Made by a program: the position numbers and the translations under genes. The notes beneath the pieces are model-generated. The model saw only the letters and a list, made by a program, of their open reading frames with translations. It had not been told where the DNA came from and did no database searches. This document shows positions 43,876-58,939 of a DNA stretch of 62,366 nucleotides, piece after piece (position 1 is the stretch's first letter; each line of letters begins with the position of its first letter). The DNA comes from Pseudomonadota bacterium (GTDB taxonomy: Bacteria; Pseudomonadota; Gammaproteobacteria; Steroidobacterales; Woeseiaceae): contig JAQCAD010000016.1 of assembly GCA_027621915.1 (NCBI GenBank), forward strand, positions 1-62,366. The letters run 5' to 3'.

Positions 43876-44967
43876 ATGGCAATCAAATGTGGCATCGTCG
43901 GGTTGCCGAACGTTGGCAAATCGACTTTATTCAATGCACTCACCGCTGCTGAAATTCCAGCGGAGAATTACCCTTTCTGTACGATTGAGCCGAACGTCGG
44001 CGTCGTAGCTGTTCCTGATCCGCGGCTTGGTGTGCTCTCAGGGATCGTCAAACCTCAGAAAACCATTCCGACAGCGATGGAGTTTGTTGATATCGCCGGC
44101 CTGGTCAAGGGAGCCTCAAAAGGGGAGGGTCTGGGCAATCAGTTTCTTGCAAATATTCGGGAAACTAACGCCATAGCCCATGTTGTGCGATGTTTTGAGG
44201 ACGATGACGTTACCCATGTAGCCGGAAAGATTGACCCGGTTGGCGATATCGAGACGATCAATACGGAGCTTGCTCTTGCTGATCTGGAGTCGGTCGAGAA
44301 ACAATTATATAAGGCGGAAAAAAATGCCAAGACCAACGAGAAAGATGCGATTGCACTACGCGATCTGTTGAAACGAATTAGTGCACATCTTGATCAGGGG
44401 ATGCCGGTGCGATCGTTGAATCTTGAAGAGAACGACCTGGCGCGGATTCGAGACCTGCACTTGATAACGTTGAAGCCGGTTATGTACGTTGCTAATGTCG
44501 ACGAAGGCGGTTTTAGAAATAACCCTTACCTTGATTCGGTTGTTGCGTTGGCTAAAGAAGACGGTGCGGAGGTCGTCGCGATCTGTGCGGCGATCGAGTC
44601 GGAAATTGCGCTGCTGGATGAAGCCGACAAAGCGGATTTCCTTGCAGATCTCGGTCTGGAAGAACCTGGTCTGGATCGCGTAATCCGGTGCGGATACAAG
44701 TTATTAGGACTGCAGACGTACTTCACCGCAGGTGTGAAAGAGGTCCGGGCGTGGACTACGAAAGTTGGTGCGACCGCGCCGAAAGCGGCGGCGGAAATTC
44801 ATACGGACTTTGAAAAGGGTTTTATCCGTGCCGAGGTGATCGCCTACGACGATTTCGTCAAGGGTAATGGCGAACATGGCGCCAAAGAAGCTGGCCGGCT
44901 GCGCCTCGAAGGAAAGGAATATATCGTCCAGGAAGGCGACGTCATGCACTTCAGGTTCAATGTCTGA
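43876..44967 (+). CDS. ychF: Redox-regulated ATPase YchF (OLA1 family)
   Basis: A 363-residue P-loop ATPase of the Obg family. G1 is GLPNVGKST, and G3 [21 protein letters not shown] coiled-coil insertion (about 130-190) and a C-terminal TGS domain (about 280-363, [13 protein letters not shown]) follow. YchF binds ribosomes and takes part in stress responses. The pth-ychF pair is conserved in gammaproteobacteria. The stop overlaps the convergent TRAP gene by 11 bp. Confidence 0.97.
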
Positions 44968-46972
44968 CAGAAGATGACGGTTCAGTCCGGTGTTGATACA
45001 CCACAACTCCGGCAAGAATAATTGCGCCGATTAGGTGAACGAAAACGCCGAATGGCATCCAGAGGAGGCAGAAGGCGCTGATCAGTAATATTGTGCCGGT
45101 GACAAGGTTCAATCTGGACTCGAGATGCCACTGCAAGACGCCAGCGAGCGCGTACAAACCGAAACCTGCAAATACAAACACCTGCAGCCGTTCAGCCCAG
45201 TTGCCGGTGATTATCGGCGTGAACGCAAATAACGCCGGAACCAGGTATAGCCCCTTCGCGATCTTCCAGGCCGTCAGTCCGGTTCGCATCGGAGGAGTAC
45301 CCGCTATCGCAGCAGCAGCGAACGCCACCAGGCACACGGGTGGTGTCACATTACTGTCCTGAGACAGCCAGAATATGATCAGGTGGGCGCTAAGCAGCAT
45401 ACCGGTGACTAATGCGGGATCCAGCAACTCGCCGCGGACGAGTTGTCGCATTTCAGGTGGCATCTCAACAAATGCCCGTGCCGGATCGCCGCCAAACAGG
45501 TCAATGACGGCCTGCACACTGGATGGCAGGTCAGTTGCGCTTAAGGCGTTCAGCATGGCGGACTGGCTCATCAGGTCATAAAGTGCAGGGGCAGCGAGTG
45601 TTGCCAACACAATATACGAGGCAGTTACCGGGAGACCCATTCCCAGGATCAGCGACGCCAGTGCGACGAGGACGAGTGTCAGCAACAGACTGCCATTGGC
45701 CCACTCGACGATCATGATGGAAAACGCGTTACCGAGCCCGGTTGTGGTGACGGCATTAACGACCAGCCCTACCGCTATCAGCAGGATTGCCGTCGGTACC
45801 ATGATGCGAACCGCATCAAGAATTGCGTCTACGCAGCGATTAATCGTCATCGGCGTTTCCGAAATCCACGATACGGCAACTACCGCAAAAATAGCAGCAA
45901 CTGAAGATCGCACCGGCGTATAGCCGATAATCAATGATCCGACAAGCACTGCAAGCGGAATGATAAAGTGCCAGCCCTTCCTGATCGTATCAATTGTCGA
46001 TGATTGATCTGGTTCGCTATCTGTCGAAACTCCGATTCGCCGCGCTTCGATACGTACAAAGAACGAGACGGTCAAGAAATAGAGCAATGCCGGAAGAACC
46101 GACACCGAGATGATTTGAAGATATGGAATCTGCGTGTAACTCGACATTACGAACGCACCAGCTCCCATTACCGGAGGCATCAACTGTCCGCCGGTCGATG
46201 CAGCAGCTTCGACGCCTGCCGCGAATCGCGGCGTAAATCCGGAGCGTGTCATCATCGGAATGGTGATGACCCCGGTAGACACCGTCGTTGCGACTGCTGA
46301 ACCTGATACCGATCCCATCAAACCGGATCCGATGACCGCGATGTGACCCGCACCGCCCTGGTAACGACCTGCGAAGCTTCGCGCGACGTTGACAATAAAA
46401 TCACCGGCCCCGGACTTCAGCAGGAAAGCACCGAAAAGAATGAACATGAAGACGAATGTGGACGAGATGTTGGCCACCATTCCAAACATGCCATCGCCAC
46501 TGAAGTAACTGCGATAAAGAACGGTCTCAATACTTAAACCTGGAAAGGAGAACAGGCCCGGTACGTAGCGACCGAGAAACAGAACATACGACATGCTGAC
46601 GGCGATCAGGAGCGGCATGAACCAGCCGCTCGTACGCCGGGTCAATTCCATCGCGAGGAGCACAGAGGCGCCTGCGAAAAAATAGTCTGCCGGGATGAAT
46701 TCGGATTCTCGTGCATAAAGCGCGTTTTCGAAAAGAATCAGGTAGACAGCGACGCTTATCGAAAGTAGCGCCAGGAAGACGTTGCCCACCGCCCGAAAGC
46801 TGACGCGACCCTGCGAAGATTTCGGTTGGTGAAAACTCAGTGCACAGAGTGCGCCGAAACCCCCGAAATGGATTGCAGCAAACCACAATTCCGAGACGGC
46901 ATTGAACAGATTATTGTAGACGTGGAACAGCGCGAACAGGACGGCTGCCCATCTTACGAGTGACCTGGTCAC
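44957..46972 (-). CDS. TRAP transporter permease, fused 4TM-12TM
   Basis: A 671-residue inner-membrane protein with some 18 hydrophobic segments. It joins the small (DctQ-like) and large (DctM-like) subunits, as usual in TAXI-type TRAP systems. DctM features are seen in [22 protein letters not shown] and [14 protein letters not shown]. It imports a dicarboxylate-like or related solute using a Na+ or proton gradient. It is coupled by a 4-bp overlap to the TAXI binding protein upstream. Confidence 0.93.
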
Positions 46973-47976
46973 GGTGGCAGCAGTTCGGGAGGTATCGTCA
47001 TTCCCCGTTCCCGGTAATAACGAATGGCACCCGGATGCAATGGTGCGCCGAGCCCCCGCAACGCCTTGTCAAGGGTTACCTCTACCGTTGCTTTATGAAT
47101 TTCGTGAAGTGCCGACAGGTTTTCCCACATTGTTTTTGTAACCAGGTAGACAACTTCGTCAGAAACATCGGCGCGAACGGCAAGAATATTCGGGTGTGCG
47201 ATCGACTGAACATCTACTGGTTGATTCGGATAGGTGTTTGCGCGAATCACGTAACGGCTCCAGAGAGGATAGGTCCGATTGATCGCTTCGATATCTCTGT
47301 CACTGAAACTGAGCAACGTCAGGTCTTCGCCAACCATTGCGAAAGCACGGGTAATGCCCGTTACCGGAGGACCGGCTGGAATGTTCATGCCGACAATCGT
47401 TCCGTCCTGGATGGCGTCGGCAGTTGCGCCGTAGCCCATGTACGCGAGATCCAGTTTACTTTCATAATCGATGCCCAGGCTCTTCAGAATGTGATCGCCG
47501 CTTTTCTCGGCGCCGGAATTTCTGGCACCTATAACGAAACGTTGGCCATCCAGTCTGTCCAGGTCCCAGATCGAGCCATCGACGGTCAAATCTGTGAGCA
47601 GGACGAAATGATCGGCGTTTTGCCACATCGCGCCAATGCTCCTTAACCAGGGCTGCGGCTTGCTGACCGGGCCGTCACCGTACCAGGCCCACGCCGCAAA
47701 TATTCCCTGAAGCATTGCAAACTGAGCCTGGTTGTCCCGCATCAATTTGATGTTCTCAAGCGATCCGGCCGAGCTGATGGCCGAAAGACTAATGCCCTTG
47801 GTTGAATACAATTGCGATTTGGTGATCGTCGCGATCGCGACACCGACCGGATAGTAGGTTCCGCCCGTTGTGGCCGTCGCCAGGATATAGGGCCGGCTGG
47901 TCGAAAGGTTCTCGGAACAGGCACCACTTACAAGAAACATCCCAAGACATATGAGATTTCGAATTGAACGTCTCAT
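46969..47976 (-). CDS. TAXI-family TRAP solute-binding lipoprotein
   Basis: A 335-residue binding protein with a lipoprotein signal (VSGAC). The TAXI fold shows ATATTGGTYYPVG and SAGSLENIKLMRDNQAQFAMLQ near the N-terminus and MWENLSALHEIHKA near the C-terminus. The ATG at 47976 gives the lipoprotein signal; a GTG 21 bp upstream is an alternative. It feeds the fused permease, and their stop and start overlap. Ligand is unknown, but TAXI proteins studied so far bind small dicarboxylates and glutamate-like acids. Confidence 0.92.
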   Translation of the reverse strand: MRRSIRNLICLGMFLVSGACSENLSTSRPYILATATTGGTYYPVGVAIATITKSQLYSTKGISLSAISSAGSLENIKLMRDNQAQFAMLQGIFAAWAWYGDGPVSKPQPWLRSIGAMWQNADHFVLLTDLTVDGSIWDLDRLDGQRFVIGARNSGAEKSGDHILKSLGIDYESKLDLAYMGYGATADAIQDGTIVGMNIPAGPPVTGITRAFAMVGEDLTLLSFSDRDIEAINRTYPLWSRYVIRANTYPNQPVDVQSIAHPNILAVRADVSDEVVYLVTKTMWENLSALHEIHKATVEVTLDKALRGLGAPLHPGAIRYYRERGMTIPPELLPP

Positions 47977-48192
47977 ATCGATGGCAAACCTCGCCACGCG
48001 GAAATTTTGGCGCCCGGCGCTTGATCGACGGTTATCTCAGGATGCTCAAACATAAAAAGGTCTGTTGTCTCGATCGGCTTATTATACGTATGCAGCGAAG
48101 GACAACCCGATTTGTGTGGGCATCTATCGGCATGCGCCATCGTTTGCTATGTTCCATTGTGCAAGTGCCACGCTGTTTAAGGGGTAATCGTC

Positions 48193-48984
48193 ATGAAGAA
48201 CGGCCCGAAATTCATCATGCCTGCGGCTTTTCTGCTTAGTCTTGCATTGCCCGTATGGGGCCAATTGCCACCTGACGAGCTTTCAGAGGCTGATCTCGCT
48301 GATGGTCAGCGGCTGTTTCGCGTGCATTGCGCACGCTGCCACGGCATCGACGGTGCGGGCGGTGAAGGATCCAACCTCGCGCGCGCCAGGCTGAAATATG
48401 CGACGGATGATGAAACTTTGATAGCGGTGATCGACGACGGCATTGCCGGTACCGGCATGCCGGCCATCTGGTCACTTGACGACGACCAGACCCGGAGAGT
48501 GGCTGGCTACGTGCGCACACTCGGGAAGCTTGCAATCGAGGAGATGCCCGGTGATCCGGGACGGGGGGAATCGATTTACCAGGCTGGAGGTGGTTGCCCG
48601 GCTTGTCACATCATTGCCGGTCACGGGAAGGGTATCGGGCCCGAGTTGACAGATGTCGGCGATCGTCGCGGACTGGCCTATCTCAGGACCTCGCTGGTTG
48701 AACCCGCAGACGCGCAGTCGCAAACGATGGGGTATCAGGATTTCCTGACTGTCCGGGTCAAATCTGCAGCGGAGAGCGTTGAAGGATTGCGTATCAATGA
48801 AGATGCTTTTTCCATCCAGGTACGCGACATCGGCGGCAATGTACATTCATTCCGAAAAGACGAATTCGTTGAGGTCGAAAAGATTTTCGCGCATAGCCTG
48901 ATGCCTGCGTACGGGGCCGCGTTATCGCAGCAGGACATGGACGACCTGGTTTCCTACCTGATGAGTCTGAGGGCCGAAAAATGA
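48193..48984 (+). CDS. Secreted dihaem cytochrome c
   Basis: A 263-residue exported protein (signal about 1-23, VWGQ). Two haem c sites are seen: CARCH (46-50) and CPACH (135-139); the first domain has GTGMP with axial Met. A domain between about 170 and 225 with a beta-rich region interrupts the second cytochrome fold, which ends at SLMPAYG. The stop overlaps the PQQ dehydrogenase start by 4 bp, so it is very likely its electron acceptor in the periplasm. Confidence 0.9.
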   Translation: MKNGPKFIMPAAFLLSLALPVWGQLPPDELSEADLADGQRLFRVHCARCHGIDGAGGEGSNLARARLKYATDDETLIAVIDDGIAGTGMPAIWSLDDDQTRRVAGYVRTLGKLAIEEMPGDPGRGESIYQAGGGCPACHIIAGHGKGIGPELTDVGDRRGLAYLRTSLVEPADAQSQTMGYQDFLTVRVKSAAESVEGLRINEDAFSIQVRDIGGNVHSFRKDEFVEVEKIFAHSLMPAYGAALSQQDMDDLVSYLMSLRAEK

Positions 48985-50582
48985 GAAAGCTGGTGGTACT
49001 GATCATGGTCCTTGCCGCGCATTCGGCGAATGCGGATGTGAGCTTTGGCAGACTTGTCGATGCGAAGAACGACAAGGACAACTGGCTAACGTATTCCGGA
49101 ACATATCGTTCGGAACGGTATTCACCATTGGCTGAAATCAATACGCGCAACGTCAAAAATCTCAAAGTGATTTGGGCATACCAGATGCAACCGTCCACAA
49201 TCACTGGTGCAGGGCTGGTCGAAACCACGCCGCTGGTCGCCGATGGCATCATGTACATTACGGAACCACCGAGCACAGTAACGGCACTCGATGCGCGAAC
49301 CGGCAAACGGCTATGGACCTGGTCTCCGGAACTGTCAGATGAAGTTCTGCATATTGGTTTTCCGAAAGTAAATCGCGGCGTCGCCCTCTTGGGTGACGCT
49401 GTCTATGTGGGGACTCTAAACGCACATCTTGTGTCGCTGGATGCGGCAACCGGCGCGCTGCGCTGGGACGTTGAGGTGGCCGACAACAAGGTCGGATTTT
49501 CGCTAACGCTTGCGCCACTTGCGCTCGAAAGGATGATTATCGTCGGCGTCAGTGGTGCGGAGGCGGGTGTGCGCGGTTTTGTCGATGCCTATGATTCCGC
49601 AACAGGTGAGCGTGTGTGGCGATTCAACACGATACCTGCACCTGGCGAACCGGGAAGTGAAACCTGGCAAGGCGACGCCTGGCAGACTGGTGGCGGTTCA
49701 ACCTGGTTGACCGGTTCGTATGATCCCGATCTCGATTTGCTCTACTGGACGGTCGGCAATCCTGCTCCGGACTGGAACGGCGATGTACGTCCAGGCAACA
49801 ACCTTTATTCCTGTTCCCTTATTGCGCTGGATCCCGACACCGGCGAGCTGAAATGGCATTTCCAGTTCACACCCCATGATACTCACGACTGGGACGCGAA
49901 CCAGATACCGGTTTTGTTCGACGCCGAATTCAATGGCGTGGATCGAAAGATCGTGGCGCTCGCCAATCGCAATGCATTTTTCTATCTGCTCGATCGCGAG
50001 ACCGGGGAGTTTTTGCACGGCAACGAATATTCAAAACAGACCTGGGCGGCGGGTCTCGACGAATCGGGCCGGCCGATCGTGTTGCCGGGCACGGATCCGA
50101 CCTACGAGGGCAACCTGATCTGGCCGAGCCTGCAGGGCGCCACGAACTGGTTCAGCCCGTCCTACAACCCACAGACAGAGCAGTTTTTTGTGTCGACTCG
50201 CCTGATGGGGTCCGTCTATTACAAAGCGGACGTCGAGTACGAGGAAGGTATGCCATTTCTTGGCGGGGGCGAGCAGGCCATGTCAGGCGATGACGCGGCA
50301 GGTGCGATTCGGGCATTGGATGTGCTAACGGGCAAGCAACAGTGGGAGTTCATGCTGCATTCGCCGCCGTGGGCCGGCGTCATGGCAACGGCGGGTGGCC
50401 TGGTTTTCGGGGGCAGCAACGAGGGTAATGTATTCGCACTGGATGGCCAGTCCGGTAAGCCCCTTTGGGACTTTCAGACAGGTGGTGCGGTCCGAACGAA
50501 CCCCATGTCATTTGCAGTGGACGGCAGGCAGCGTGTCGTATCGACAGGTGGCGGCACGCTTTTCGTGTTCGGCCTGGAATAG
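48981..50582 (+). CDS. PQQ-dependent dehydrogenase, alcohol type
   Basis: A periplasmic beta-propeller quinoprotein of 533 residues with a signal peptide (about 1-18). PQQ-propeller W-motif repeats such as ALDARTGKRLWTW and SLDAATGALRWDV recur. Active-site ligands: Glu194 (SGAEAG), Asn260 (VGNPAPDW), catalytic Asp303, with Asp305 two residues after it (HDWD). An extra Asp there is the mark of lanthanide-using XoxF/ExaF enzymes, but it also occurs in other branches. There is no adjacent Cys-Cys pair of methanol dehydrogenase, and no fused haem domain. Substrate unknown. It is cotranscribed with the dihaem cytochrome. Confidence 0.9.
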   Translation: MRKLVVLIMVLAAHSANADVSFGRLVDAKNDKDNWLTYSGTYRSERYSPLAEINTRNVKNLKVIWAYQMQPSTITGAGLVETTPLVADGIMYITEPPSTVTALDARTGKRLWTWSPELSDEVLHIGFPKVNRGVALLGDAVYVGTLNAHLVSLDAATGALRWDVEVADNKVGFSLTLAPLALERMIIVGVSGAEAGVRGFVDAYDSATGERVWRFNTIPAPGEPGSETWQGDAWQTGGGSTWLTGSYDPDLDLLYWTVGNPAPDWNGDVRPGNNLYSCSLIALDPDTGELKWHFQFTPHDTHDWDANQIPVLFDAEFNGVDRKIVALANRNAFFYLLDRETGEFLHGNEYSKQTWAAGLDESGRPIVLPGTDPTYEGNLIWPSLQGATNWFSPSYNPQTEQFFVSTRLMGSVYYKADVEYEEGMPFLGGGEQAMSGDDAAGAIRALDVLTGKQQWEFMLHSPPWAGVMATAGGLVFGGSNEGNVFALDGQSGKPLWDFQTGGAVRTNPMSFAVDGRQRVVSTGGGTLFVFGLE

Positions 50583-50665: not shown

Positions 50666-50742
50666 GGTGATGTAGCTCAGATGGTTAGAGCGGTGGACTC
50701 ATAACCCGCAGGTCGGTGGTTCGATCCCACCCATCACCACCA
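50666..50742 (+). tRNA. tRNA-Met (anticodon CAT)
   Basis: A 77-base cloverleaf with acceptor GGTGATG/CATCACC, discriminator A and encoded CCA; D-stem GCTC/GAGC and T-stem GGTGG/CCACC. The anticodon loop is CTCATAA. The acceptor pairs at position 1-72, so it is not the initiator. The CAT anticodon fits elongator Met, but a lysidine-modified tRNA-Ile2 cannot be excluded by sequence alone. The anticodon stem has an A-C mismatch at its loop end. Confidence 0.92.
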
Positions 50743-50752
50743 GACAAAGATT

Positions 50753-50790
50753 AAGGTGTCAACCGGTCACATGGTTTACACCTTTATTTT
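50753..50790 (+). terminator. Terminator after tRNA-Met
   Basis: AAGGTGT (50753-50759) and ACACCTT (50778-50784) pair, and inside them AACC and GGTT extend the stem after one mismatch. TATTTT follows. It separates the tRNA from the HiPIP module. Confidence 0.7.
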
Positions 50791-51023
50791 GGAAATACGC
50801 CCATCGCTGGCTGGCGCGAAGCGCCTTCAGCACTACGCCCTGATCGGCAAGTGTACGAATTAAGTGAACCATAACTGGCGGACCGGGGTTTTGCTGCGGT
50901 TCTTGCGCAAGGTTGGAGAAGTGGCGGCAGACTATACGTCGATGTAAACCGCCGGACGCTCAAGCCGGGTTATATGCGAAGGAAACTTAGCCCCTGATTC
51001 GCTAGCAAGCAGGAACTAAGAAT

Positions 51024-51353
51024 ATGCTGGTCAAGAAAATTACTCGACGCGCTGTTTTGCGGCATGGCATGTACTTTTCAGCGGGAGGCGTGACGCTCCT
51101 TGGGCTCGGCGCATGTGGGGAATCGGATGATCAACAGCTCGTGTGCAATCAGCCGGGCCAGCTCAGCAACAGCGAAATAAGTATGAGGGCGTCGCTGGGC
51201 TACGCTGATGTATCGCCAAATCCCGGGCAAATATGTGGCGGATGCATGTACTTTACGGCCGAAGGATCCGGTGGGGGCTGTGGCTCTTGTACATTGCTGA
51301 AAGGGCGGGTAAGCAGCGAAGGGCTATGCAATTCCTGGGGTGCAAAATCCTAG
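51024..51353 (+). CDS. High-potential iron-sulfur protein (HiPIP), Tat-exported and lipoprotein-like
   Basis: A 109-residue electron carrier for the periplasm. A twin-arginine leader (TRRAVLRHG) fits export of a pre-folded [4Fe-4S] protein. Cluster ligands are Cys71, Cys74, Cys89 and Cys102 in the HiPIP pattern (CGGC, GSCTLLKG, GLCNSW). LGLGAC (Cys31) resembles a lipobox, so it may be lipid anchored. Cys86 is an extra cysteine one turn before the third ligand. AGGAA lies 8 bp before the ATG. The trihaem cytochrome gene follows 68 bp on. Confidence 0.9.
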   Translation: MLVKKITRRAVLRHGMYFSAGGVTLLGLGACGESDDQQLVCNQPGQLSNSEISMRASLGYADVSPNPGQICGGCMYFTAEGSGGGCGSCTLLKGRVSSEGLCNSWGAKS

Positions 51354-51421
51354 GTGTTATTTGCGGACCGGCGAAAAATTTCGGAAGTGCTTATCCACAC
51401 TTGCCCGTGCTTGCGCACTTC

Positions 51422-52690
51422 ATGAAATTGATTTGTCGGGCCTGCAGTGACCGCTGCACGATTCCAGCAGTAGTCCTTCTTCTGTTCCTGGCCATCAACG
51501 TTCCGGTTCCGACGGCTGCTGCTGCGACCCAGTCGGAGATCGAGTACGGCTTGTATCTGTCGAAGGCCGGCAATTGCATGAGTTGTCATACTCGTGCAAA
51601 CGGCGATCAGTTTGCCGGCGGTGTAGTGTTCGAGACCCCGTTCGGGACAATCTATTCGACAAACATTACTCCGGATGCAGAGACAGGCATCGGTGAATGG
51701 ACGCTGCAAGATTTTGCGATGGCACTTCGTGAAGGTGAGAGGCCTGACGGCCAGCACCTTTATCCGGTATTTCCATATACGTCGTATACGATGGCAAGTG
51801 ACGCAGAGATCGCTGCATTGTTTGCATACTTTCAAGCCTTGCCTGCTGTGAAATACAGGCCGCCGGAAAACGATCTGGGATTCCCATACGGTCAGCGGTG
51901 GACCTTGGGCATGTGGAAGTCCATTTATTTCGATGAGGGCCGTTATGTGCCCAACCCGGATCGGACCCCTGAATGGAATCGGGGTGCATACCTGGTCAAC
52001 GGCCTTACGCACTGTGGAATGTGTCATTCGCCAAGAAATTTTCTCGGGGCAACAGACGAAGATCTGGCACTGACGGGTAGCACTTATACGGAAAACGTCG
52101 ACGGGAAATCTTTGAGTTGGTCGTCGACGAATCTCACATCGTCAAATAACGGACTTGGCCTCTGGTCAGTGGAGGACATCGTTTCTTACCTCCAGTTAGG
52201 CGTAAGTTCCCGGGCGGGTGTTTTTGGCCCCATGAACGAGGTCATCGCAAGTGGCACCGCGCATCTGACACAGCAGGATCTGCGAGCAATGGCGGTTTAC
52301 CTGAAGAGCCTAGCTGCCAATGAACAGGAGAATGATTCGGAACCTGACGAGGATACGATGCGCCAAGGGTCGCTGTTGTACGATATCCACTGTGGAACCT
52401 GCCACTTGCCGACGGGTCTCGGTTCCGATACTACGGGTCCACCATTGCTTGGAAGTCCCGTTACGCTTGCAGCGGATCCCGCATCCCTGATCAATATCAC
52501 TCTTTATGGGCCCCGCTTGCCTAGAGTGGCACCGTCCGCGGAATGGGAGGCGCGAGCCTGGCAGCGCATGGACTCCTACGCGGCCATTTTGGATAACGAA
52601 GAAATGGCGGCACTGTCGAGCTTCATTCGAAACGCCTGGGGAAACTCGGCGGATGAGGTGACGCCGAAACAGGTAGCGAAGCAACGCTGA
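51422..52690 (+). CDS. Secreted trihaem cytochrome c
   Basis: A 423-residue exported protein resembling the cytochrome subunit of membrane alcohol/gluconate dehydrogenases. Three haem sites are CMSCH (52-56), CGMCH (198-202) and CGTCH (324-328). It begins with a hydrophobic signal (about 15-35). The ATG at 51422 is chosen because it gives that signal; the frame is open farther upstream into HiPIP but would lack one. This family usually passes electrons from a dehydrogenase to quinone or to a terminal oxidase. The adjacent HiPIP could accept or donate electrons. No flavin or molybdenum subunit is adjacent. Confidence 0.88.
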   Translation: MKLICRACSDRCTIPAVVLLLFLAINVPVPTAAAATQSEIEYGLYLSKAGNCMSCHTRANGDQFAGGVVFETPFGTIYSTNITPDAETGIGEWTLQDFAMALREGERPDGQHLYPVFPYTSYTMASDAEIAALFAYFQALPAVKYRPPENDLGFPYGQRWTLGMWKSIYFDEGRYVPNPDRTPEWNRGAYLVNGLTHCGMCHSPRNFLGATDEDLALTGSTYTENVDGKSLSWSSTNLTSSNNGLGLWSVEDIVSYLQLGVSSRAGVFGPMNEVIASGTAHLTQQDLRAMAVYLKSLAANEQENDSEPDEDTMRQGSLLYDIHCGTCHLPTGLGSDTTGPPLLGSPVTLAADPASLINITLYGPRLPRVAPSAEWEARAWQRMDSYAAILDNEEMAALSSFIRNAWGNSADEVTPKQVAKQR

Positions 52691-53184
52691 GATTAGCGCC
52701 GAGGGAGATGTCGGGCCTGGTAATACATAAGTCTGCCGAGGCCGTAGTACTCGCTACCCACGACAACCGCGTGCTCAACAAGGTGATGAGGCCGAGTCTC
52801 GACAGGCGCTTCGTGCCGTTACGGCCACGTTATCACTGGCCATCTCGTAAACCTAATATGGTAAATATCGCCCTAATAAGGTTCGGCAGCATGTAAGACC
52901 GACGGGTATGATCCAGAAGTCCGTTTCCACGTGCTTCGTTGCGCCTTTCAGCCGGGCATCATTCGGCGGTCGCTGCGGCGGTTTGATCCGGTTCCCCGGA
53001 ATTGCCCACACGACGTCGCGCGCAGCGATTTCACCCTGTGCAATAATCGACGGGCCCCGAGCAATCCTGATGTAATGTTGGTAGTCGCCGCCGATTACGC
53101 CGAGGCAATATGATTGCCGGCTATCAGTCGCGCTCGAATGGACCCGCACTGTAGCTAAGGACGCAGGTAAGTTGGCCGGTCGTG
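52691..53184. other. 494-bp stretch without a clear gene
   Basis: I see no convincing gene or RNA here. Short frames occur on both strands (a 62-codon frame at 52708-52896 plus, a 124-codon frame at 52853-53227 minus), but none has a ribosome site at a sensible distance or a protein pattern I recognise. The stretch could be a decayed gene or a long leader for the next operon. Confidence 0.4.
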
Positions 53185-54924
53185 ATGAAGTCACGGAGTT
53201 ATCGCCGCATGAGAAGTTTGCTCCCAAAAAATCAGCAGAATCCCGGCTACATTGTCCGCGGCGGCATGCTTGGTCTGTTGATTGTTATTCTTGTTGCCTG
53301 TTCGCCGCGCGAACCCGACAGTCATGGCACAGAGCCGCGCGTAAGGCTCGTTAGCACGGATCAGTACGTCAATTCGTTGCGCTACATATTCGGGGCCGGC
53401 ATCGAACTGCGGGTAGAGTTTCCGCCATTCGAACGAACAGAAGGATTACTCGGCAACAGCGCGGGAATAGCCGGAATCAGCAGTTCACAAATGGAGCAGT
53501 TCCAGACTGCGGCCATTAGCGTTGCCAGCCAGGTGGTAGACCCTGCGAACCGGGAATTTCTGATCCCATGCAAGCCGGCTGAGCAAGGCTCGGCGGACAC
53601 AGCTTGTGCAGCCGAGTTCTTCTCGAAAACCGGACGGCTGTTGTACCGGCGACCACTGACAGATACCGAGCTCGCGCTATTTGTCGACAGTGCAGTGTTG
53701 GGGACCAACAGCCTGCGTGACTTTTACGCCGGCCTTGAGATCGCACTGGAAGCAATGTTGCTCAGTCCCGACGTGCTGTTTGTCGTGGAGCGTGCCGAGC
53801 CGGACCCGGCGAACTCCGAGCGACTGCGTCTCGATGCGTACTCGCTCGCCTCGAGGTTGAGCTACTTGCTATGGAATGCCGCGCCGGATGCCAGGCTGCT
53901 TGACGTGGCCGCAAGCGGTGAGCTGCAGACCGACGACGGGCGAGCCCGAGCCGTCGAGCGGATGCTGGCAAGCCCGCGGCTCGTGGATGGTATGCGTGCA
54001 TTCTTCGACGACATGTTCCATTTCAACGAATTCAGGACCGTCACGAAGGACCCCTCAATCTACCCGCAGTTCCAGAACGCGACTGCAGAGGCTGCGCGGG
54101 AGCAGACGCTGCGCACCGTGATCAATCACCTGATCACGGAAAAGCTGGATTATCGTGACCTGTTCACAACGCGGTCCACCTTCATGTCGCCAGCCCTGGC
54201 AATCTTGTTCGACATCCCGACACCGCCTGGATGGGTGCCTTACACGCTCCCGCCCGACAGTCATCGGGCTGGAATTTTGACGCAGGTCAGCTTTCTCTCT
54301 TTACATGCACATCCCGGGCGCAGTTCCGCGACACTGCGGGGCATGGCATTGCGCGAAACGCTGTTATGTCAGAAGGTGCCTCCACCGCCGCCAAGCGTAG
54401 ACTTCTCTATCCTCAATAATCCCGATGCGAATTACCCAACACAGCGCGACCGCGTAAGGGCGCACGTTGAGAATCCTTCCTGCGCCGGCTGCCACAAGAT
54501 TATGGATCCGATCGGCCTGGGGCTCGAAAACTTTGATGGAGCGGGTAGTTTTCGCCTGCAGGAGAATGGGGCGATGATTGACGCGAGCGGCAGTCTCGAC
54601 GGTGTGGAATTCGAAGACGCCGTTGGTCTGACGCAGGCCCTGCACGACAATCCGGCATTGCCAAAATGTCTTGTACGGCGCGTCTTTGACTACAGCGTTG
54701 GCGGACCACCAGGCGCCGAAGGCCAGCACCGAGCTTTCCTCGATCACGTGAATGAAGCCTTCGCCGCCGAAGATTTCCGGCTGCACAACTTGCTGCGGAC
54801 GATTGCGCTAAGCGATGCCTTTTCACGCATCCAGCAGCCGCGGACTTCAGTCCCGGATGGCGACGAGCGGCAGACTACGCTGAAGCCGGAAGTCGAGGCG
54901 CAAAAAGTTGAGATCGAGGGCTGA
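53185..54924 (+). CDS. DUF1592/DUF1588/DUF1585 lipoprotein with a haem-binding motif
   Basis: A lipoprotein of about 579 residues (lipobox ILVAC). The order of segments matches the DUF1587-1595-1592-1588-1585 family common in Planctomycetes, Verrucomicrobia and Myxobacteria: DUF1587-like near 55-80, DUF1595-like (about 145-205), DUF1592 (about 215-345), DUF1588 (about 360-455) and DUF1585 (about 465-545). A CAGCH haem c site (434-438) followed by MDPIGLGLENFD lies in DUF1588. Tandem GTG-ATG starts; a later start at 53209 is possible. It precedes its usual partner, a DUF1552 protein, by 53 bp. The function of the pair is not known. Confidence 0.85.
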   Translation: MKSRSYRRMRSLLPKNQQNPGYIVRGGMLGLLIVILVACSPREPDSHGTEPRVRLVSTDQYVNSLRYIFGAGIELRVEFPPFERTEGLLGNSAGIAGISSSQMEQFQTAAISVASQVVDPANREFLIPCKPAEQGSADTACAAEFFSKTGRLLYRRPLTDTELALFVDSAVLGTNSLRDFYAGLEIALEAMLLSPDVLFVVERAEPDPANSERLRLDAYSLASRLSYLLWNAAPDARLLDVAASGELQTDDGRARAVERMLASPRLVDGMRAFFDDMFHFNEFRTVTKDPSIYPQFQNATAEAAREQTLRTVINHLITEKLDYRDLFTTRSTFMSPALAILFDIPTPPGWVPYTLPPDSHRAGILTQVSFLSLHAHPGRSSATLRGMALRETLLCQKVPPPPPSVDFSILNNPDANYPTQRDRVRAHVENPSCAGCHKIMDPIGLGLENFDGAGSFRLQENGAMIDASGSLDGVEFEDAVGLTQALHDNPALPKCLVRRVFDYSVGGPPGAEGQHRAFLDHVNEAFAAEDFRLHNLLRTIALSDAFSRIQQPRTSVPDGDERQTTLKPEVEAQKVEIEG

Positions 54925-54977
54925 GACTGGTGCAGTAAGCAGGAAGAAATCATGGAATTGCTTAAAGGTGAAATGAT

Positions 54978-56309
54978 ATGCAAACGTTAAACAGGCGCCG
55001 TGTCCTGAAGGGCATGCTGAGCGGAAGTGCGGTGACAGTTGCGCTTCCCTTCCTCGATTGCTTCCTGAACGAAAACGGCACCGCCCTCGCGTCGGGACTC
55101 GAGATGCCGGTACGGTTTGGTACCTGGGGCTATGGACTCGGAGGGACATCGAACGTATTCGTGCCGAACAAGTTTGGTTCCGACTACGACTTGCCGCCTG
55201 AGATTGGCTCGTGGGCACGGGTGCGTGAGCACATCAATCTGTTTAGCAATTCGAAAGGCTATCTGGACGGCACCTCGAACAGGTGTCATTACTCGGGTTG
55301 GGTGATCACGAGATGCGGCACTGCTCCGTCCGATCGCATCCCCGGCGAGACCATCGATGCCACCTTAGCCAAACAGCTCGGGAATACCACGCGCTACCAC
55401 TCGCTTACGGCGACCGCGACCGGCGACGTGACCACGACGTATAGCTACATCAATGCGGGTACGCCCAATCCTGCGGAATGGTCACCGTTGAAGTTTTACA
55501 CGCGGCTATTCGGGCCGGATTTTCAGGATCCAAATGCATCGGAGTTTACCCCCGACCCGAGGATCATGGTTCGCAAAAGTGTGCTGTCCGGCATCATGGA
55601 GCAGACCCACGAGTTGAATAAGACCGTTGGTGCGGCGGACCGGGCCCGTATTGACCAGTATTTTACGGGCTTGCGCCAGTTGGAGAGGCAGTTTGAACAC
55701 CGTCTCACCAAGCCGCAGCCGATTACGGGCTGTCAGCCACACGACCAGCCGCCTGTCGAACCATCAATGAATAGCGAGGCGGCAACGGTGCAGTTGCGTC
55801 ATCGTATGATGACCGAGCTGATGGTCATGGCCCTGGCCTGCGATCAGACACGTATCTTCAACATGGCGTACTCGGCCGCCAACTCCGGACTTATCAAACC
55901 GGGCTATGAAAAGCCGCACCACACCTGTACGCACGAAGAGCCTGTAGACAAGGAATTGGGCTATCAGCCGAACGCTTCCTGGTTCACGCGGCGCTCCATG
56001 GAAGCTTGGGCCGACTTTGTTGAGGCGTTTACGAAAGTCAGGGAAGGCAACGGTACGCTCCTGGATAACGTACTGATCTATGCCACTACGGACGTTGGCT
56101 ACGCACGGACGCACACCCTGGATGACATGGTGGTATTTACCGCTGGCCGGGCAGGAGGCAAAGTCAAATCCGGATTGCACGTCGACCTGAAGAAAAAGTC
56201 GCCTACCGCTGTTGCGTACACTGCCATACAAGTGTTGGGCGTGGACCTTCCTTCGTGGGGCACCTTGAACAACAAGTCCTCCGAGGTCCTCCACGAAATT
56301 CTCGTGTGA
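54978..56309 (+). CDS. Tat-exported DUF1552 protein
   Basis: A 443-residue protein with a Tat leader (NRRRVLKGMLSGSAVTVALPFLD) and the DUF1552 body, an alkaline-phosphatase/sulfatase-like fold. Segments MVMALACDQTRIFNMAYS and DNVLIYATTDVGYARTH match the family. DUF1552 genes nearly always neighbour DUF1592 genes, as here, and their products are thought to work together outside the cytoplasm. Tat export suggests a cofactor or folding before export. No catalytic residues can be assigned with confidence. Confidence 0.85.
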   Translation: MQTLNRRRVLKGMLSGSAVTVALPFLDCFLNENGTALASGLEMPVRFGTWGYGLGGTSNVFVPNKFGSDYDLPPEIGSWARVREHINLFSNSKGYLDGTSNRCHYSGWVITRCGTAPSDRIPGETIDATLAKQLGNTTRYHSLTATATGDVTTTYSYINAGTPNPAEWSPLKFYTRLFGPDFQDPNASEFTPDPRIMVRKSVLSGIMEQTHELNKTVGAADRARIDQYFTGLRQLERQFEHRLTKPQPITGCQPHDQPPVEPSMNSEAATVQLRHRMMTELMVMALACDQTRIFNMAYSAANSGLIKPGYEKPHHTCTHEEPVDKELGYQPNASWFTRRSMEAWADFVEAFTKVREGNGTLLDNVLIYATTDVGYARTHTLDDMVVFTAGRAGGKVKSGLHVDLKKKSPTAVAYTAIQVLGVDLPSWGTLNNKSSEVLHEILV

Positions 56310-56371
56310 GATTGGGCGTTGCCAGCTCACGCGGGGAAAAATATTCGCGGCCTCACGGTAAAGGACTGTTT

Positions 56372-57811
56372 ATGCGGCGACTGTTGAACCTGGTTCGGAT
56401 TCCGCTACTGATCGTGGTCATTACTGGCGGGCAGCCAGTAATCGATATTGATGCTGCCGCCGCTGATGCGGCTACGACAGGCGTTGCCCGGAAAGCTTTG
56501 CAGTACTGGCAGCCGCCCGGCAGACCTGAGCAGGAAGCCTATATCGAGGAACCGCTGCCACCCGGATTCCAAGTGATTGTTTCGCCACTCGAAGGTCCCG
56601 TGTTCGCAGATTCCAGCGGGCGAACACTGTATACGTGGCCGCTAAGGGTGCAACGCAATGGACAGGCTGGCGATCGGCCGGGACGACCTTCGAGTTGTAC
56701 GGATGAGGTTCTGCAGGTTTCGGCCGGTCTCATGAGCCCGTATCCGGCAGGACTGCTGCTGCCGGATCTCGACAGGCGCGTGAGCTGCATCGACGTGTGG
56801 CCGCCGGTCATTGCACTGGAAGACGCAGAACCCCTGGGCAAATGGTCAATCATCGAGCGAATGGATAGCGCCAGGCAGTGGGCCTATGACGGTCAACCTC
56901 TTTATACATCGATTCTGGATCAACAAGCGGGGGACGTGCGGGGAGGCACAAAAATGCTGAGTGGTGGCGACGCGGGCGTGCTACGCAAACCGGCGGCTCC
57001 CACGTCGCTGATTCCACCGGCGTTTGGTGTAGCTCAGTCCTCGACCGGACGATTGATCGTCAATAAGAATGGGTATTCCGTTTACAGTTGGGACGGTGAT
57101 GAGCCAAACCAATCGAATTGCCATGGCGACTGCCTGACCTACTGGACTCCGGTGCCGGCGCCGGAGAATGTGACGGAAAAGGGCGGGTGGACCACCTTTG
57201 AGCGCTCGCCCGGAACCAAGCAGTGGGCCCTCCGCGGCAAACCGCTCTATACCTTCAATTACGACCCCGACGAGCGCAGCTTCATGGGCGCCGATGTGCC
57301 AGGCTGGCATAACGTGTATACGCAGCGTGCACCTGCCCCTCCCGAAGAATTCACTGTGCAGGATGGCGACTTCGGCGGACAGGTGTTGGCGGATTCTCGT
57401 GGCAGGACAATCTATTTGTACAACTGTATTGAAGACACCTTCGCTCAACTGGCCTGTAACAATCCTGGCACAACGCAGGCGTATCGCCTGGCGATTTGCG
57501 GCGACGGGGACGCGGAGCGTTGCGGCGAGACCTTTCCTTACGTCATTGCACCAACCGGTGCCAGCGCTGCAAGCCCGCTTTGGAGCGTCATGGCCATCGA
57601 TCCGGACACGGGGCGCAGCGCCGGCCCGGGACAAACGGATGCACTGCATGTCTGGGCCTACCGGGGCGAGCCGGTCTACACCTACGCCGGCGATCCAGGG
57701 CCCGGGACTCTCAATGGTCAGGGGCTTGGTGAATTTGCAGGAACGCGCAACGGCTTTCGGGCTTTCTTTTTGCGTGACATCTTTCAGGACAGTGAGTTTC
57801 GGCGGCCTTGA
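56372..57811 (+). CDS. Secreted triple-repeat protein of PF03640 (lipoprotein_15) type
   Basis: A 479-residue exported protein. The body has three long repeats (about 64-195, 217-315 and 337-465), each with a first half ending in a GRTLYTW or GYSVYSWDGD motif and a second half with QPLYTS, KPLYTFNYDPD or EPVYTYAGDPGPG. These Y-x-[FWY]-x-x-D motifs define PF03640/COG4315, secreted repeats of unknown function. Repeat 2 has the CHGDC cysteine pair of the family; repeats 1 and 3 carry other Cys. The ATG at 56372 follows AAGGA and gives a signal peptide. It is 62 bp after DUF1552, so probably in the same operon. Confidence 0.8.
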   Translation: MRRLLNLVRIPLLIVVITGGQPVIDIDAAAADAATTGVARKALQYWQPPGRPEQEAYIEEPLPPGFQVIVSPLEGPVFADSSGRTLYTWPLRVQRNGQAGDRPGRPSSCTDEVLQVSAGLMSPYPAGLLLPDLDRRVSCIDVWPPVIALEDAEPLGKWSIIERMDSARQWAYDGQPLYTSILDQQAGDVRGGTKMLSGGDAGVLRKPAAPTSLIPPAFGVAQSSTGRLIVNKNGYSVYSWDGDEPNQSNCHGDCLTYWTPVPAPENVTEKGGWTTFERSPGTKQWALRGKPLYTFNYDPDERSFMGADVPGWHNVYTQRAPAPPEEFTVQDGDFGGQVLADSRGRTIYLYNCIEDTFAQLACNNPGTTQAYRLAICGDGDAERCGETFPYVIAPTGASAASPLWSVMAIDPDTGRSAGPGQTDALHVWAYRGEPVYTYAGDPGPGTLNGQGLGEFAGTRNGFRAFFLRDIFQDSEFRRP

Positions 57812-57850
57812 ACAGCGCGGCAAACCGTATTGAAGAACATGAGGTGACGT

Positions 57851-58939
57851 ATGACACGTAAACGAGCAGACACATTGACGCCGCCGCTACAGCGTTTGTT
57901 GTTTGGCACAGTGGCGCTGTTTGTGACAGGCATGGCAGTAGCAGAAGCCCCGAGGGACGGTCGTATCGGCTATGTCATGGTAGAACGGCGATGGGCTGTA
58001 TACAGCGAAGACGATCTTGATACGGCGTGCCCTGATGGATTCAATGGTGGGCCTCGCGACCAGTTTTCGGAGTTATTCCCCACTGACAACGGTCAGCAAT
58101 ACACCGAGCTGGAGTCACGGCTCATGCGCGAGGGGCGCCAGGCGCATCCGACCACTTCCAAAGATCCATTCCCGTATTACGACGCACAAGGGTTGATTTC
58201 GTACGGCTTGAATCTTGATAACAGGATTGGTCCCAACGATCTGCAAAGCCCAGCGGGAATAGAGGGGATCGACAATCAGGTATACCGTGCGGTCGGTTGC
58301 ATTGATGGTTACCGCTACAAAGGGGCTGTCTGGCAGTTCGATACCAGCGACATGTTAGAGAACCTGGCCAACCGCTTCGTGATTGAATTAGCGGGCGTGG
58401 ATGATTTTCACAATGATGACGAAGTGACGGTAACTACCTATCGTGGTCTTGACGGACTGCACAAGGATGCGACGGGCACCTTGTCCGCTGGTGGAGTGCA
58501 ACGAGTTGATATGCGCTGGGGCCAGCCGTTTATCTATCAGATTCAAGGCAAGATCGTGGACGGTGTGCTGATTACAGAGCCTGTCGATGAGTTCAAATTG
58601 ATCTGGTCGATGGCGCAGAATATTGGGAGCTATCAGCTGTTTCAGGGCTTTCGCATGCAGATCGAGTTGAACCCGAAATCAGCGAAAGGATTGTTCGCAG
58701 GCTACGTCGACATAGACCAATGGGATCTTAACCTCAACACCAACTGGACGACGCACTTCCAGTCATACGGCCACGTCTCACAACCATCTTTGTATCGCGC
58801 GATGCATCGCCTGGCAGACGGGTATCCTGACCCGGTTACAGGTGAGAACACGGCGGTTTCCTCGGCAGTGGAGGTGTCGTTCATTCAGGTTCACGTCATG
58901 CGTCCTCCGGAAGATGTCAAAGTGGCTCGTACTGATTGA
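57851..58939 (+). CDS. Secreted protein of unknown family
   Basis: I do not recognise this 362-residue protein. It has a long signal peptide (about 1-32, AVAEA), then no membrane segment. It is rich in Asp, Gly, Tyr and Gln and appears mostly beta (YRGLDGLHKDATGTL). Two Cys in the mature part (in TACPDGFN and VGCIDGYR) could pair. It is 39 bp after the PF03640-type gene and on the same strand, so it is probably cotranscribed and secreted to the same compartment. No catalytic motif is evident. A binding or structural partner of the DUF1592/DUF1552 pair is a guess. Confidence 0.75.
   Translation: MTRKRADTLTPPLQRLLFGTVALFVTGMAVAEAPRDGRIGYVMVERRWAVYSEDDLDTACPDGFNGGPRDQFSELFPTDNGQQYTELESRLMREGRQAHPTTSKDPFPYYDAQGLISYGLNLDNRIGPNDLQSPAGIEGIDNQVYRAVGCIDGYRYKGAVWQFDTSDMLENLANRFVIELAGVDDFHNDDEVTVTTYRGLDGLHKDATGTLSAGGVQRVDMRWGQPFIYQIQGKIVDGVLITEPVDEFKLIWSMAQNIGSYQLFQGFRMQIELNPKSAKGLFAGYVDIDQWDLNLNTNWTTHFQSYGHVSQPSLYRAMHRLADGYPDPVTGENTAVSSAVEVSFIQVHVMRPPEDVKVARTD

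Follow-up and report, generated by a model that had tools for sequence, protein, structure and literature searches.

The locus analyzed here raises the question of what six adjacent genes for exported proteins, the last of them an orphan encoded at 57851 to 58939 (UNK), do together in the cell envelope. The window, i.e., the whole stretch of DNA that was analyzed, comprises 62,366 nucleotides. The initial annotation had suggested an undescribed redox system at this place. The cluster proved to be a real, exported, haem-containing module, and a description of it was not found in the literature searched.

Organization of the gene cluster

The genes and reading frames of the whole cluster, from the HiPIP gene to UNK, were confirmed from the DNA. 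A tRNA-Met gene (50666 to 50742) precedes the cluster and is followed, in the same direction, by the genes for a HiPIP-type iron-sulphur protein, a trihaem cytochrome c, a DUF1592 lipoprotein, a Tat-exported DUF1552 protein, a PF03640 protein, and UNK. All six are encoded on the + strand with intergenic gaps of 68, 491, 53, 62, and 39 bp. Position 50666, previously given as the start of the cluster, is the start of the tRNA gene, and the cluster itself begins at 51024. The prediction of exported proteins encoded in one direction was correct, as export-signal patterns are present in all products and a lipobox in one. The start of the trihaem cytochrome gene is most likely the ATG at 51422 rather than the overlapping start at 51233.

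A gap of 491 bp (52691 to 53181, no strand) separates the trihaem cytochrome gene from that of DUF1592 and may interrupt the transcript. It exceeds the gap in all 36 relatives measured (45 to 419 bp between profile matches); a further value of 941 in locus L100 reflects a second match within the same locus. No convincing relic gene for this gap was found among the open reading frames of the fetched loci. Neither promoter-like sites (3 versus 6.1 expected) nor terminator-like sites (9 versus 10.3 expected) were in excess.

A genomic island after the tRNA gene was rejected, since the tRNA 3' end does not recur elsewhere in the window (at least 18 bases, at most 3 mismatches). The PQQ dehydrogenase/cytochrome pair ahead of the tRNA gene was also rejected as a member, having weak relatives in 3 loci only.

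Conservation of the module

With UNK as the sole query, 85 loci with 99 UNK genes were obtained, and partners were counted for those UNK genes with enough contig present. The PF03640 gene was directly upstream of UNK in 77 of 92 cases and absent there in 15. Upstream of UNK, DUF1552 was present in 60 of 77 cases (missing in 17), DUF1592 in 52 of 69 (missing in 17), and the trihaem cytochrome in 33 of 57 (not in 24); in L018, L043, and L108, the trihaem gene is located elsewhere in the locus. A tblastn search detected HiPIP in 6 of the 86 other loci (L018, L033, L037, L043, L053, and L108). The expected co-occurrence of six genes held for UNK with the PF03640, DUF1552, DUF1592, and trihaem proteins but not for HiPIP, which is inconstant. 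Five or six genes usually occur together, and some UNK copies are solitary.

Among 107 genomes of the family, 15 places with a module-type DUF1552 gene were found. UNK adjoins 14 of them, and at the fifteenth the contig stops 23 bases past the PF03640 gene. In 12 loci (15 DUF1552 genes) from the other 22 places, UNK, PF03640, and the trihaem gene were all absent from the fetched stretch. Because the same order returns in tens of other contigs, it is more than chance. Many of the compared loci are close relatives of one another. The order is held across Alpha- and Gammaproteobacteria at 41 to 56% UNK identity. In L067, a single open frame spans UNK and PF03640, and in G196 a distant UNK occurs in the different order UNK-DUF1592-DUF1552. 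The downstream gene in G196 reads as a TonB receptor, judged from its first residues only. These results support the conclusion that the genes form a conserved module that includes UNK.

The distribution of UNK is sporadic, with 11 of 107 genomes in the family, 2 of 398 in the phylum, and 1 of 369 in the class (own genome included in each), and one complete genome has four copies. The hosts are scattered marine and soil bacteria, including Kordiimonas aquimaris, Steroidobacter agaridevorans, Peristeroidobacter agariperforans, Parvularcula mediterranea, and Bradyrhizobium iriomotense.

Trihaem cytochrome and HiPIP

The trihaem cytochrome (51422 to 52690, +; Cytochrom_C) has three CxxCH motifs in 29 of 29 aligned rows. 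Its profile matches PDB 8gy2 (1.1e-104) and also 8hdd and 7w2j; the homology covers the haem region and stops about 50 residues short of the C terminus of these solved dehydrogenase cytochrome chains. By homology, the protein is a member of the fructose/alcohol dehydrogenase trihaem family, to which the cytochrome subunits of the alcohol, glucose, and fructose enzymes belong. Cytochromes of this family are the electron outlet of dehydrogenases and take electrons from the catalytic subunit. Sugar-oxidation GMC genes were rejected as partners; they occur in 7 closely related loci, 11 to 14 kb from the trihaem gene and on the opposite strand. Another flavin-type oxidoreductase is encoded near the module in L087 and is a candidate alternative catalytic partner. 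In L055, a MauG/CCP-type peroxidase gene lies two genes ahead of the trihaem gene.

The HiPIP-type protein (51024 to 51353, +), an occasional member of the module, matches PF01355 with 25.8 bits (cut-off, 22). By eye, its leader is twin-arginine and lipobox-like.

DUF1592 and DUF1552 proteins

The short DUF1592-type monohaem c lipoprotein (53182 to 54924, +) has the domain order PSD3-PSD5-PSD4-PSCyt3-PSD2, i.e., DUF1587/1595/1592/1588/1585. All five Pfam scores exceed the cut-off (PSD4, 106.5 bits; PSCyt3, 100.8; PSD5, 52.9; PSD2, 38.2; PSD3, 23.6). The CxxCH motif is located inside DUF1588, where a haem site had been predicted. It is single in 48 of 48 module rows, and His and Tyr are invariant outside the haem motif. 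PSCyt1 or CBB3 traces, some below the cut-off, were present in all four classical DUF1592 proteins scanned and in none of four module proteins. A fold search with DUF1592 gave no clear match, and a missing match shows little. Kinship with DUF1800 was rejected: there was a weak Pfam hint, and hhalign gave 23.6% over 80 N-terminal columns (0.3% for the classical form).

The DUF1552 protein (54978 to 56309, +) matches PF07586 with 138.6 bits (cut-off, 30), and its predicted export via Tat was borne out. All 50 module rows have HxxTHE, not HxxSHH; in the classical rows, the third-to-last residue of the motif is S in 10 of 15 and T in 5 of 15, and the last H is found in 14 of 15. His and Asp are conserved at several positions, and the protein is probably a metal protein with an altered motif. 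Module DUF1552 forms a clade separate from the DUF1552 of the classical DUF1592-DUF1552 pair. In hhalign, classical DUF1552 matches DUF1501 with 81% (E, 1.2e-5) over 198 columns, among them those of the Tat leader, whereas the match of module DUF1552 to DUF1501 is weak (14.7%) and lies in the leader region. DUF1501 is a member of the alkaline-phosphatase clan.

PF03640 protein and UNK

The secreted PF03640 repeat protein (56372 to 57811, +) had been described with three repeats, but four stretches pass Pfam. NCBIfam SCO0930_lipo scores 94.5 bits, under the model cut-off of 275. PF03640 repeats are common to this protein and the SCO0930-type lipoproteins, from which it differs in its 479 residues, its four repeat stretches, its coupling to UNK, and its score below the cut-off.

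For UNK (57851 to 58939, +), Pfam and NCBIfam give no family, the initial annotation having likewise recognized none, and no meaningful match to PDB sequences was found. The AF2 model is good (pLDDT, 88.5), but no clear fold match emerged. Foldseek against the PDB returned nothing at an E value of ≤0.001, an absence that shows nothing. The best VIA Z was 6.4 (rmsd, 3.7; 106 aligned), with avidin-like barrels, which is not a clear match.

Neighboring genes and candidate substrate

Accessory genes were counted in 86 loci. A creatininase-like gene occurs in 28 of them, each time at most about 0.9 kb from a module gene; a TonB receptor occurs in 14 (8 within 0.5 kb), an HpcH-type aldolase in 7 (within 0.7 kb), and an amidase in 5 (2 within 0.3 kb). 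The presence of the creatininase-like hydrolase, TonB receptor, and aldolase nearby points to a small imported compound. No evidence was obtained for a polymer or lipid, which had been suggested as the target. Among the 107 family genomes, 16 have a strong creatininase-like gene, including all 11 UNK genomes, an association confounded by kinship. In the window, no creatininase-like or aldolase match was found in a search partly without positive control.

Solitary UNK copies adjoin Paa genes in L056, L057, L078, and L094, as does the PF03640-UNK pair in L041. These calls rest on PaaA, PaaK, and PaaZ models for L057 proteins, PaaC for an L041 protein, and clustering for the other loci. Phenylacetate was rejected as a general substrate: the link is not a general rule because PaaA is absent from the own genome, while control genomes gave a signal.

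Proposed function and alternatives

We propose, with about even confidence, that the module is an envelope oxidoreductase system, periplasmic and partly lipid anchored, which serves the catabolism of a small organic substrate and passes electrons to respiration. DUF1592 and DUF1552, aided by PF03640 and UNK, would replace the catalytic subunit of a dehydrogenase. The DUF1592 haem would hand its electrons to the trihaem cytochrome, in some cases to HiPIP, and these would continue to the respiratory chain, a direction that we assume. In some genomes, a TonB receptor may import the substrate, and hydrolases or aldolases from adjoining genes may then open or cleave the oxidized product. In line with this proposal, the classical DUF1592 protein has a cytochrome-like N terminus; the module form lacks this region but has a separate cytochrome. 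More tentatively, and rather doubtfully, the module may be a periplasmic dehydrogenase of a new, respiratory class, in which DUF1592, DUF1552 with its rebuilt HxxTHE center, PF03640, and UNK form the catalytic unit and the fructose/alcohol dehydrogenase trihaem cytochrome is used with this unit instead of a flavin or PQQ subunit. Through duplication and transfer, such a class would have diversified to different substrates, partnered by creatininase-like proteins or aldolases.

Electrons may instead flow in the reducing direction, from the trihaem cytochrome or HiPIP into a peroxidase- or oxygenase-like DUF1592 that serves detoxification or an oxidative attack. The single c-haem with invariant His and Tyr beyond its motif and the peroxidase gene in L055 are consistent with this, but no sequence or fold link between DUF1592 and peroxidases was found (the missing fold match shows little), and the trihaem family is known from dehydrogenases; we consider this explanation unlikely. 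Slightly less likely still is the earlier idea that the module serves to build or modify a structure of the envelope, whether by polymer or lipid modification or protein maturation, rather than using a substrate. The sporadic distribution, the four copies in one genome, and the degradative neighbors look catabolic, against the export signals on all products, the lipobox, and the DUF1501-DUF1800 pair, a possible analogue that, in the portion of PMC5122149 consulted, is reported to adjoin chitin synthase genes of bacteria.

DUF1552 could also be the main enzyme, an alkaline-phosphatase-like hydrolase, with the haem proteins as mere sensors or side partners. This is improbable: the alignment of classical DUF1552 with DUF1501 and the conserved His and Asp would fit a hydrolase, yet the module form aligns weakly and the cytochromes are conserved alongside it. 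That the genes adjoin through shared ancestry or transfer without a joint function is very improbable, despite the variable positions of HiPIP and the trihaem gene and the solitary UNK copies, given the order kept between the two proteobacterial classes, the UNK-PF03640 fusion, and the rearranged yet linked genes of G196. The oxidoreductase system is our preferred reading.

Comparison with known systems

In the consulted part of PMC5615132, PSCyt3-encoding genes usually have a neighbor of unknown family and their function is given as unknown; DUF1552 is not named in that portion of its main text. The portions consulted of three other papers list DUF1592/DUF1552-type domains (PMC7789669), mention them in stress expression (PMC2754498), and include a CBM2-DUF1592 protein in a lignocellulose table (PMC6004670). 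For planctomycete-type DUF1592/DUF1552, no function is on record in the literature searched, and the module supplies a likely electron outlet and fixed partners. Because it occurs in named strains with such an outlet, the oxidized substrate of DUF1592/DUF1552 becomes testable.

The DUF1501-DUF1800 pair has a parallel layout of adjacent genes, is found in the same genomes as well, and has one Tat-exported partner (PMC5122149, consulted in part). DUF1501 is weakly related to classical DUF1552, whereas DUF1592 shows no convincing relationship to DUF1800. Fructose, alcohol, and glucose dehydrogenase complexes share with the module the trihaem cytochrome family and the envelope redox setting, but the module has no adjoining GMC or PQQ catalytic gene (the two types covered by the search). 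In the classical DUF1592-DUF1552 pair, both proteins are homologous to those of the module (hhalign, 100% each), adjoin in the same order, and likewise combine one Tat-exported protein with one c-haem protein. The N-terminal cytochrome region is missing from module DUF1592, as are about 180 to 200 residues between PSD3 and PSD5, and module DUF1592 has one CxxCH, whereas classical rows have two (14 of 15) or three (1 of 15), a count that omits L126, a fragment cut by the contig end. Module DUF1552 has HxxTHE in place of the classical HxxSHH and belongs to its own clade, and the module adds PF03640, UNK, and the trihaem cytochrome. As judged from sequence, it is a compact proteobacterial variant of the known DUF1592-DUF1552 pair, with UNK as a new family.

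Gene organization of the window

The window spans a complete contig (C2); the draft genome it comes from totals 3.56 Mb. A tRNA-Met gene (50666-50742) is followed by six genes in the same direction, encoding a HiPIP (51024-51353), a trihaem cytochrome (51422-52690), DUF1592 (53182-54924), DUF1552 (54978-56309), a PF03640 protein (56372-57811) and an exported orphan protein, UNK (57851-58939). UNK had no Pfam or NCBIfam match and no meaningful PDB match, in line with the initial annotation, which recognised no family for the last protein. The second module copy of this genome is apparently split across two contigs (L032 on C30 and L023 on C14).

Before the tRNA gene, a cytochrome gene and a PQQ-type dehydrogenase gene overlap by 4 bases (48193-50582). 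The dehydrogenase passes the PQQ methanol/ethanol model and has a slightly higher, yet sub-cut-off, score on the 'acido-empty-quinoprotein' model. The reverse-strand stretch at 44957-47997, adjoining YchF, presumably encodes a TRAP-type membrane protein and a TAXI-like solute-binding protein, judging from a look at the sequence. At the contig end (61238-62304), a gene for an exported protein of unknown family, without a Pfam match, overlaps a DUF6152 gene; weak relatives of the exported protein were found in two fetched loci (L055 and L066).

Conservation and distribution of the module

The module genes form a conserved unit. UNK was found in 11 of 107 family genomes, with four copies in the complete genome G105 and two in the window's own genome. 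The order DUF1592-DUF1552-PF03640-UNK recurred in 14 other family places, as far as the contigs extend; the trihaem gene was 5' of DUF1592 in 7 of these, and in 3 the contig ends before it could show. In the four G105 copies the trihaem gene is not upstream, and one copy has trihaem and HiPIP genes on its far side.

A scan of a species-genome collection gave 114 UNK-encoding stretches, the best 80 of which were kept, for 85 loci with 99 UNK genes in all. The loci were picked by UNK alone, so the co-localization counts are not circular, and the denominators are the UNK genes whose contig extends far enough; many of the 85 loci are close relatives. In this set, with its scan part limited to the best 80 of 114, PF03640 was directly 5' of UNK in 77/92 (median gap, 57 bp), and DUF1552 (60/77), DUF1592 (52/69) and the trihaem cytochrome (33/57) were upstream; a trihaem gene at any position was present in 40 of the 85 loci. 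Many exceptions to the module order are extra copies within multi-copy genomes. At L067:9938-12475, one open frame encodes both UNK and PF03640, a natural fusion. In G196, a distant relative from another class, UNK precedes DUF1592 and DUF1552, and PF03640 is absent from the fetched stretch.

The distribution of the module is sporadic. UNK occurred in 2 of 398 phylum-wide genomes and 1 of 369 class-wide genomes, own genome included in both. The only strong match of the module DUF1552 profile among these 369 class-wide genomes was in the window's own genome; three others gave weak matches (E 6e-28 or worse). Named carriers among the best 80 of 114 stretches are Alpha- and Gammaproteobacteria, together with records titled 'Candidatus Marinimicrobia'.

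Protein features and proposed electron transfer

Export through Tat, as initially suggested for DUF1552, agrees with the Tat pattern in 50/50 module sequences, and 43/48 module DUF1592 sequences have a lipobox-like pattern. Two cysteines and many charged residues are invariant across the 84 UNK sequences. No CxxCH was found in them, indicating that UNK does not bind c-haem by the usual motif. The predicted UNK structure was confident (pLDDT, 88.5; pTM, 0.86), with no Foldseek match at E<=0.001; its best Z score, 6.4, was to avidin-like barrels, a level that is common according to the tool. The DUF1592 model (pLDDT, 85.5) gave no clear match (best Z, 5.9 across 111 residues).

In alcohol, glucose and fructose dehydrogenase complexes, the trihaem subunit receives electrons from the catalytic subunit and hands them on to the respiratory chain. 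The module trihaem protein belongs to this cytochrome family, matching PDB cytochrome subunits of these dehydrogenases at 1e-104 to 1e-100. The role of cytochrome subunits in general is described in a review (PMC6472588). Across the loci, no PQQ or GMC gene, the two types sought, was found adjoining the module cytochrome. GMC genes lie 11-14 kb away in seven related loci, and L059 has a single weak match; PQQ relatives, all weak, are present in three loci. In locus L087, another flavin-type oxidoreductase gene is on the opposite strand, two genes ahead of the cytochrome. A MauG/CCP-type dihaem peroxidase gene (L055:1789-2928) is two genes before the trihaem cytochrome of its locus.

For this conserved unit with export patterns, haem motifs and a cytochrome of that family, DUF1592 and DUF1552 would together be the oxidizing enzyme, PF03640 and UNK may assist or bind the substrate, and the trihaem cytochrome would be the electron exit. 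Reversed electron flow, with the haem protein working in the reducing direction, is unlikely, though it is the likeliest of the alternatives. A function in envelope building appears somewhat less probable, and a hydrolase centered on DUF1552 is more doubtful still. Searches of open-licence literature by domain names turned up few papers relevant to the module, and the UNK-PF03640-trihaem combination was not mentioned in what they returned.

The module neighbours, surveyed in 86 loci, point to degradation of small molecules rather than to any one substrate. Of these loci, 28 have a creatininase-like gene (PF02633 in one representative). It is at most about 0.9 kb from a module gene; it has several placements and occurs in either orientation. 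Strong copies (E < 1e-45) occurred in 16 of 107 family genomes, including all 11 UNK genomes, an overlap inflated by kinship; in three genomes (G029, G024 and G031) such a gene is also found some 2-2.5 kb from classical DUF1592-DUF1552 pairs. TonB receptor genes were present in 14 loci (within 0.5 kb in 8, farther away in 6), amidases in 5 (2 of them within 0.3 kb) and HpcH/HpaI-type aldolases in 7. Five aldolases from these loci were scanned: three score above or close to the cut-off, and one, a fragment, has no Pfam match. In G105, a gene between a TonB receptor gene and the HiPIP gene (L018:1991-3721) encodes a fusion of a metallo-beta-lactamase domain with an HpcH-type aldolase (24.0 bits; cut-off, 25). 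An acetamidase/formamidase gene is 3' of UNK in locus L037, and solitary UNK copies in four alphaproteobacterial-type loci of draft genomes (L056, L057, L078 and L094) adjoin phenylacetate degradation genes.

Comparison with classical DUF1592-DUF1552 pairs

Classical pairs, of the 'planctomycete-specific' PSCyt3/PSD kind, also occur in the family genomes, where their DUF1592 frame is mostly about 800 residues long. PF07586 also occurs at 22 places that are not of the module type; the 12 loci fetched from these contain 15 DUF1552 genes, and UNK, PF03640 and trihaem genes were absent throughout the fetched stretches. In the tree of 79 DUF1552 sequences, the split between the 15 classical and the 64 module sequences is fully supported. 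Because rooting was at the midpoint and the program flagged long branches (among them L119 and L190), the tree does not date the join of the groups. The module sequences form two groups; the window copy is in the one containing all HiPIP carriers, and the second copy of its genome falls in the other.

The two forms also differ in their motifs. Module DUF1552 has HxxTHE (50/50), whereas the classical rows mostly have HxxSHH. Module DUF1592 has a single CxxCH (48/48), in contrast to two or, once, three in the 15 classical rows. The PSD3-PSD5 stretch of classical DUF1592 is about 180-200 residues longer, and only the classical form has a weakly scoring N-terminal cytochrome domain. Module DUF1592 lacks this domain and therefore has no built-in second cytochrome; it is often accompanied by a separate one.
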